Source of the DNA: Enchytraeus crypticus
Taxonomy: Eukaryota > Annelida > Clitellata > Enchytraeida > Enchytraeidae
DNA: 64,000 nt
Assembly (NCBI GenBank): GCA_905160935.1
Contig: CAJHZI010000782.1
Location: 155,001-219,000 of the forward strand
Reading direction: 5' to 3'
Part shown: positions 5,186-45,543 of the stretch, one piece after another
Numbering within the stretch: position 1 is the stretch's first letter
Layout of the letters: the number at the start of each line of letters is the position of its first letter
Program-made: the position numbers and the translations under genes
Notes under the pieces: model-generated
Databases searched by the model: none
What the model saw: only the letters and a program-made list of their open reading frames with translations
What the model was told of the DNA's origin: nothing

Positions 5186-5532
5186 TTAGAAGTGATTGTG
5201 ATGCTGACAGCTGTGATGGTATGACACTGTACTCGGGGTATACCTTCTAACATGTCTGACCGAGTGATTGTAGGGTGACGTATCGTACGCCCCTACCCCA
5301 CTGCACACATCGCAGTCACACCCACGATGAGATACGACCACCGTGGCGTCCCCGGCGACCACGGGGCAGCACAAGGCGCAGGGGCCCCCGCCCTCGGCCG
5401 AGCAGAGGAGGGGGCAGCACAGGGCGGCCTGGCCTCGAGTGACGCAGCAACAACAACAGATGCAGAGCAGTATGAGGAGCAGAAGAGATGATATAACAAC
5501 GCAGGAGACTATTATAGCAATCCTCCTCACCC
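5186..5532 (-). CDS. Last exon: transmembrane helix and Cys-rich cytoplasmic tail
   Basis: The acceptor TATTTCTAG at 5533 joins in phase 1. The exon starts VRRIAI, followed by a strongly hydrophobic segment of about 20 residues ([20 protein letters not shown]) and then ICCCCC. The remaining tail of about 90 residues is rich in Cys pairs ([22 protein letters not shown]) and ends in a His/Tyr-rich stretch with stop at 5186. The five-Cys run at the inner membrane face is a probable S-palmitoylation site (inference). The 5340-5450 stretch is locally GC-rich. The tail has no recognised kinase, SH2 or PDZ-type motif that I can see. A minus-strand ATTAAA lies only about 13 nt past the stop, too close to be a convincing poly(A) signal. 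Confidence 0.82.

Positions 5533-45543: not shown

Follow-up and report, generated by a model that had tools for sequence, protein, structure and literature searches.

The window analysed here is a 64,000-nucleotide stretch of DNA from the annelid Enchytraeus crypticus and forms part of contig C684; the genome that was searched with its features comprises 524 Mb in 802 contigs. Its minus strand carries a gene model of 42 exons, running from position 45543 to position 5186 and encoding 2480 amino acids followed by a stop codon, which was rebuilt from the sequence by reading the minus strand and by scanning for phase 1-1 mini-exons (among the matches listed). All 41 donor sites are GT and all 41 acceptor sites are AG, the phases join throughout in a single frame, and the 2480 codons contain no internal stop, although several mini-exons have weak donors. 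A first-pass annotation of this DNA had proposed 41 exons and 2,466 residues in one frame with legal splice sites. The single frame and the legal splice sites stand, whereas the counts rise to 42 and 2480. The 14-residue gap would fit one missed exon of 42 nucleotides, and the model contains two of that length (32858-32817 and 22219-22178).

Exon 1 (45453-45543) supplies the start codon and a leader that ends in phase 1. By eye, this leader is a possible signal peptide, although its hydropathy falls below the threshold used for transmembrane (TM) segments. The following are Ser/Thr-rich mini-exons: exons 2 and 3 (43753-43700 and 42871-42803, both phase 1-1), nine phase 1-1 exons that form a mucin-like linker (exons 7-15, 30655-36534), exons 19 and 20 (27017-27743), six further phase 1-1 exons (exons 24-29, 20725-24054), exons 33 and 34 (16524-17427), and exon 38 (13812-13865). 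Exons 19 and 20 are near copies of exons 14 and 15, differing at 1 of 45 and 4 of 48 nucleotides, respectively. As a control, a filter that selects Ser/Thr-rich mini-exons of phase 1-1, chosen after the model was known, was run on several regions. It found 21 candidates on the minus strand between 13900 and 45500, 20 of which are model exons (the model has 21 there), and none on the plus strand of the same interval. Between 46000 and 63900 it returned one and zero on the two strands, and 20 shuffles gave between zero and two.

Other features of the window include reverse transcriptase remains (RVT_1), on the minus strand, in introns of the gene at 41372-42088 (75.2 bits) and 7252-7602 (54.4 bits), and a 23-bp satellite of 53 copies with a 97% match that occupies 62786-64000, up to the end of the window. 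No Rfam family reaches its gathering score within the window.

The predicted protein contains five DOMON domains, each of which exceeds the Pfam cut-off for PF03351 (32.7 bits) with scores of 59.4 to 62.8 bits. Every copy is encoded by three exons of 164, 59 or 65, and 263 nucleotides, with phases 1-0, 0-2 and 2-1. DOMON 1 (37965-39651; exons 39651-39488, 38658-38600 and 38227-37965) scores 62.8 bits, DOMON 2 (27981-29560; 29560-29397, 29129-29065 and 28243-27981) 60.6 bits, DOMON 3 (24998-26431; 26431-26268, 25994-25930 and 25260-24998) 62.7 bits, DOMON 4 (18068-20056; 20056-19893, 18832-18768 and 18330-18068) 62.0 bits and DOMON 5 (14484-15999; 15999-15836, 15229-15165 and 14746-14484) 59.4 bits, all on the minus strand. 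These domains are FRRS1-like. A phmmer search of the PDB with DOMON 3 as the query found no relative up to an E value of 1, and a profile built from nine DOMON sequences matched dopamine beta-hydroxylase (DBH) only (E 4.4e-4). A predicted structural model of a nematode multi-DOMON relative was unusable (mean pLDDT of 29.1).

Identity reaches 98.8% between DOMONs 2 and 3 and 95.7% between DOMONs 4 and 5. The two duplicated blocks share 559 of 585 (95.6%) and 513 of 537 (95.5%) exon positions, compared with 75.8% and 76.7% identity at aligned intron positions. Between DOMONs 2 and 3, 20 of 489 nucleotides differ, 18 of them at third codon positions, with two amino-acid changes (dN 0.005, dS 0.197). 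Between DOMONs 4 and 5, 15 nucleotides differ, nine of them at third positions, with seven amino-acid changes (dN 0.018, dS 0.082). These counts support the view that the duplicated DOMONs have been under purifying selection, which in turn supports their coding status.

In the alignment, all five DOMONs retain the Met/His pair of haem-b DOMONs: Met126 and His218 in DOMON 1, Met439 and His533 in DOMON 2, Met634 and His728 in DOMON 3, Met889 and His983 in DOMON 4, and Met1086 and His1180 in DOMON 5. In each, the Met sits at the border between the first and second exons (a and b) and the His precedes a TP dipeptide. The pair is also present in the three other DOMONs of this genome that were read, two on contig C224 and one on contig C556. 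All nine sequences of the alignment have the Met, and eight have the His in the aligned column; the ninth, a nematode DOMON, has a nearby His. According to the accessible portion of PMC10691727, the b haem of a DOMON-like domain is ligated by Met and His, sugar-binding and DBH DOMONs do not have this pair, and the proposed iron site of the CYBDOM DOMONs consists of two Asp residues in the motif SXDXXMGXD. The available text of PMC10784544 similarly describes a Met/His pair in HYP1 and spectroscopic haem evidence for AIR12, a GPI-anchored single-DOMON protein. In the window DOMONs, the two Asp residues of the CYBDOM iron site are out of place, as judged from one 12-residue stretch and similar ones. 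Because the Met/His pair is kept in all five copies, haem binding is favoured, and the five DOMONs are probably haem-binding domains. Among the roles suggested in the first-pass annotation, a surface haem/redox receptor, an adhesive or a barrier protein, this conservation speaks for those that involve haem.

A single exon with phases 1-1 (exon 39, 13067-13336, minus strand) encodes a kringle domain that contains six Cys residues and scores 67.1 bits against PF00051 (cut-off 34.3). Its best-matching solved chains are those of plasminogen and HGF. When it is compared with plasminogen kringle 4, two Asp and two Trp residues align, whereas Leu replaces the Phe and the Arg of kringle 4; we take these aligned Asp, Trp, Phe and Arg sites to be residues of the lysine-binding site. 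A lysine-binding kringle has an Asp-x-Asp motif, an aromatic pair and a cationic residue. The genome yields at least 129 kringle matches. Tandem arrays of kringle exons lie on contigs C387, C436, C479 and C74, with 37 of the at least 129 listed matches on C387. Among 20 of these loci, the closest relative of the window kringle lies on C436 and shares 60% identity with it, and several are single phase 1-1 exons where the borders are readable by eye.

The kringle is followed by exon 40 (8077-11211), whose 3135 nucleotides encode a Cys/Pro/Thr stalk of 1045 residues. By repeat count it holds 104 C-x4-C units, mostly CTGPDCPTP and all matching C[TSN]G[PT][DGEA]C, and 210 Cys residues, with a short unique stretch after the repeat units. 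Three other frames are also open over most of this exon, so that the open frame by itself is little proof of coding. Better evidence comes from codon-position bias: averaged over the 104 units, the minor-base fraction is 0.005 at codon position 1, 0.035 at position 2 and 0.090 at position 3, and the variation at position 2 is mostly an alternation between Asp and Gly. The stalk repeat has no Pfam match, and the genome contains 80 exact copies of a stalk DNA word, every one of them within exon 40. A short Ser/Glu/Thr-rich membrane-proximal exon follows (exon 41, 6107-6157). The last exon (exon 42, 5186-5532; 115 amino acids, 17 of them Cys) encodes a single TM helix, immediately followed by CICCCCC, and ends with the stop codon. 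The region around residues 2366-2408 is the only segment of the protein above the TM hydropathy threshold, and 13 N-glycosylation sequons lie ahead of the helix. No Pfam signalling domain exceeds its cut-off in the tail. The first-pass annotation had described five DOMONs and a kringle, roughly 100 two-cysteine repeats and a single TM helix with a Cys-rich tail, and the Pfam scan, the repeat count and the hydropathy plot bear out each of these.

Residues 1-1303 contain nothing else credible in Pfam beyond the five DOMON stretches and the kringle. Searches of this part for a reeler domain, a BIM1-like N-terminal domain, EGF and TIL gave no match. Cytochrome b561 likewise has no Pfam match in the protein, which has one TM segment only. 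A 34-position mating-hormone profile, MFA1_2, scored 34.9 bits on the whole protein (cut-off 25) and was taken as spurious; no single stretch passes.

Elsewhere in the same genome, a search with DOMON 3 produced 17 matches, of which 13 are in the window, three on C224 and one on C556, and the DOMON profile produced nine, on C224, C359, C106 and C149. By eye, the exon borders of the DOMONs on C224 and C556 coincide with those of the window DOMONs: the Met codon marks the end of exon a, exon c opens in phase 2, and the C556 exon b ends in phase 2. These shared borders make the DOMON part look like an old gene-family module. The plus strand of C224:340001-362000 encodes a leader, after which comes an N-terminal His, and parts of this locus match the N-terminal domain, the EGF and several DOMONs of a protein from the nematode Angiostrongylus costaricensis (P0003). 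The locus may represent a copper-domain and DOMON gene that this genome shares with nematodes.

The C556 locus also carries, at 290609-295799, a kringle exon, a one-exon stalk of GEGESTTP repeats and a TM exon in a row, as read by eye. The kringle exon (phase 1-1), the single-exon stalk and the phase 1 TM exon resemble those of the window; the repeat is different, no DOMON was found in the readable stretch upstream, and the stalk frame is broken into two frames in the assembly. The tails of the two proteins are weakly alike, with a local score that 23 of 2000 shuffles equal, and the C556 tail exon, searched against the genome, has no match other than itself. Next on the same strand lies a gene that combines a DOMON with a repeat exon of its own. 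We rejected this locus as a second gene with both DOMON and kringle: a TM exon with a stop codon lies between the two module sets, which therefore look like neighbours rather than parts of one gene. A candidate poly-Cys TM exon on the far edge of the locus was also set aside, since by eye it is part of another, presumably lipase-like, gene.

Protein databases were searched with subject lengths limited to 0.55 to 1.75 times the query length. At 505-1608 amino acids there were two matches in the 8000 scored candidates sharing most words, a bowfin protein with a reeler and a DOMON and a protein of the sea cucumber Apostichopus. At 717-2280 amino acids there were two in 172 candidates, both of them Angiostrongylus proteins. 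A query of DOMON 5 plus the kringle, at 1364-4340 amino acids, found none in 1639 candidates with E of 0.01 or less. The longer of these two, P0003 (1517 amino acids, annotated as 'unnamed protein product'), has four DOMONs and three TIL domains in Pfam, EGF and SEA matches below their cut-offs (the EGF exceeds its cut-off in a separate scan of the N-terminal piece), an N-terminal domain like the BIM1 copper domain at 18.3 bits (below the cut-off of 27) and, by eye, one TM helix whose inner border is rich in Cys. The earlier view that this domain set belongs to no described family agrees with these searches, as no protein with the set was found within the length ranges covered. DOMON arrays as such are not unique, however: P0003 has four copies and the Apostichopus protein three. 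The literature examined on DOMON and kringle yielded no description of the full set; in the text of PMC2762978 that was accessible, the two terms concern different proteins.

That a giant gene with five DOMONs, a kringle and a stalk occupies this locus is confirmed as an observation. It is highly improbable that the locus is a decayed gene or an assembly artefact. The retrotransposon remains in its introns would suit such an origin, but 2480 codons are free of internal stops and the exons of the duplicated blocks are constrained; their introns have diverged by about one quarter, so the blocks are not assembly copies. Coding support holds exon by exon, and we infer that all exons belong to one transcript from their phase, order and strand. 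The model could instead fuse two neighbours, one gene with multiple DOMONs and another with the kringle, stalk and TM helix. C556 provides a precedent, in that both module sets are adjacent on one strand and apparently separate, with kringle-stalk-TM first and the DOMON and repeat exon next. In the window, however, the DOMONs precede the kringle and the phases join. Moreover, the stalk exon cannot start a gene, because its frame has no ATG between the upstream stop and the repeat. We consider a fusion unlikely.

Our tentative preference, held with less than even confidence, is that one animal gene encodes a giant type I surface glycoprotein with a tethered extracellular haem/redox head. The Met and His of each DOMON would bind one b-type haem, the Ser/Thr-rich linkers would be O-glycosylated, and each stalk unit would close its own C-x4-C disulfide to give a stiff rod that carries the heads high over the membrane (at 2-3 angstrom per residue, 1045 residues amount to roughly 200-300 nm if extended). 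Linkers and stalk together would keep the heads off the surface, the kringle would dock on lysine-bearing matrix or partner proteins, and the CICCCCC stretch would be palmitoylated. Lacking its own cytochrome b561, the protein would have no route for transmembrane electron transfer, which favours a lateral role, like that of tethered AIR12 in multiple copies, here with five DOMONs. The head would swap electrons with a partner cytochrome, a copper protein or a small reductant at the body surface. Several observations weigh against this reading: the displaced Asp pair of the CYBDOM iron site, the weak donors of several mini-exons, the sub-threshold hydropathy of the leader, and the Leu residues that stand in for Phe and Arg in the kringle.

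The main rival to such a haem/redox head, and nearly as likely if doubtful in its own right, is a structural barrier or adhesive protein, in which the DOMONs have matrix sugars or proteins as their ligands, a crosslinked surface coat is built by the kringle together with the disulfide-rich stalk, and any haem is incidental. The 210 Cys residues in a 1045-residue stalk, the mucin-like linkers and the great number of kringles in the genome (at least 129 matches) all suit a coat. So does an uncharacterised Trichinella DOMON protein that is up in the molting stage, according to the accessible part of PMC6757440, and the cuticle link comes solely from that molting proteomics. Weighing against a coat are the Met/His pair, which is kept in the DOMONs read and which sugar-binding DOMONs do not have in the available text of PMC10691727, and the purifying selection on the duplicated DOMONs of the window. 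A receptor, whose DOMON array senses haem or a redox-active ligand and whose Cys-rich tail signals, seems improbable. The single TM exon with 17 Cys residues and the weak likeness of its tail to that of C556 (23 of 2000 shuffles reach the score) would fit a signalling role, but the tail has no Pfam signalling domain above cut-off and the C556 tail exon matches only itself in the genome. A bolder version of the haem/redox head, to which we give little credence, is a multi-haem surface antenna, in which five b-haem DOMONs on a disulfide-rodded stalk of about 200-300 nm, if extended, would exchange electrons between the body surface and outside acceptors or report redox state through the palmitoylated Cys tail.

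The protein is a mosaic of known modules, given the DOMON relatives in P0003, the sea cucumber, C224 and C556 and the recurrence of the kringle-stalk-TM arrangement on C556. The simplest history would be exon shuffling of phase 1-1 modules together with tandem duplication. What appears to be new is the combination, not found elsewhere within the searches made. The named domains have known relatives, whereas the Pfam scan and the genome search with the stalk word gave none for the stalk repeat. Here a DOMON array lacking cytochrome b561 is linked to a kringle-stalk-membrane module, the exon phases are compatible with 1-1 exon shuffling, and all five Met/His pairs are retained. If the array binds haem, it would offer a direct test of the role of DOMONs without their usual electron source. 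A rigid stalk of 104 C-x4-C units would be an unusual protein rod, and the antenna, if real, would represent an animal multihaem array that relies on DOMONs instead of c-type haems.

Known systems share parts of this architecture. P0003, the best match of the 717-2280 amino-acid search, has four DOMONs and, by eye, a single TM helix bordered by a Cys-rich inner stretch, but it carries a weakly BIM1-like domain, EGF, three TIL domains and a sub-threshold SEA, and has neither a kringle match nor a Cys stalk. The Apostichopus protein (P0002, 863 amino acids) has a Pfam-detected array of three DOMONs and differs in ending with cytochrome b561. FRRS1/SDR2 and other CYBDOM proteins, with their reeler-DOMON-cytochrome b561 order (the reeler being present in some animal members), have a similar DOMON, the Met/His pair and an extracellular orientation, whereas the window protein has no cytochrome b561, no reeler and no proposed Asp iron site. 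Plant AIR12 is also a membrane-tethered DOMON protein with evidence for haem b, according to the part of PMC10784544 available, but it has one DOMON and a GPI anchor in place of five DOMONs, a kringle and a stalk.
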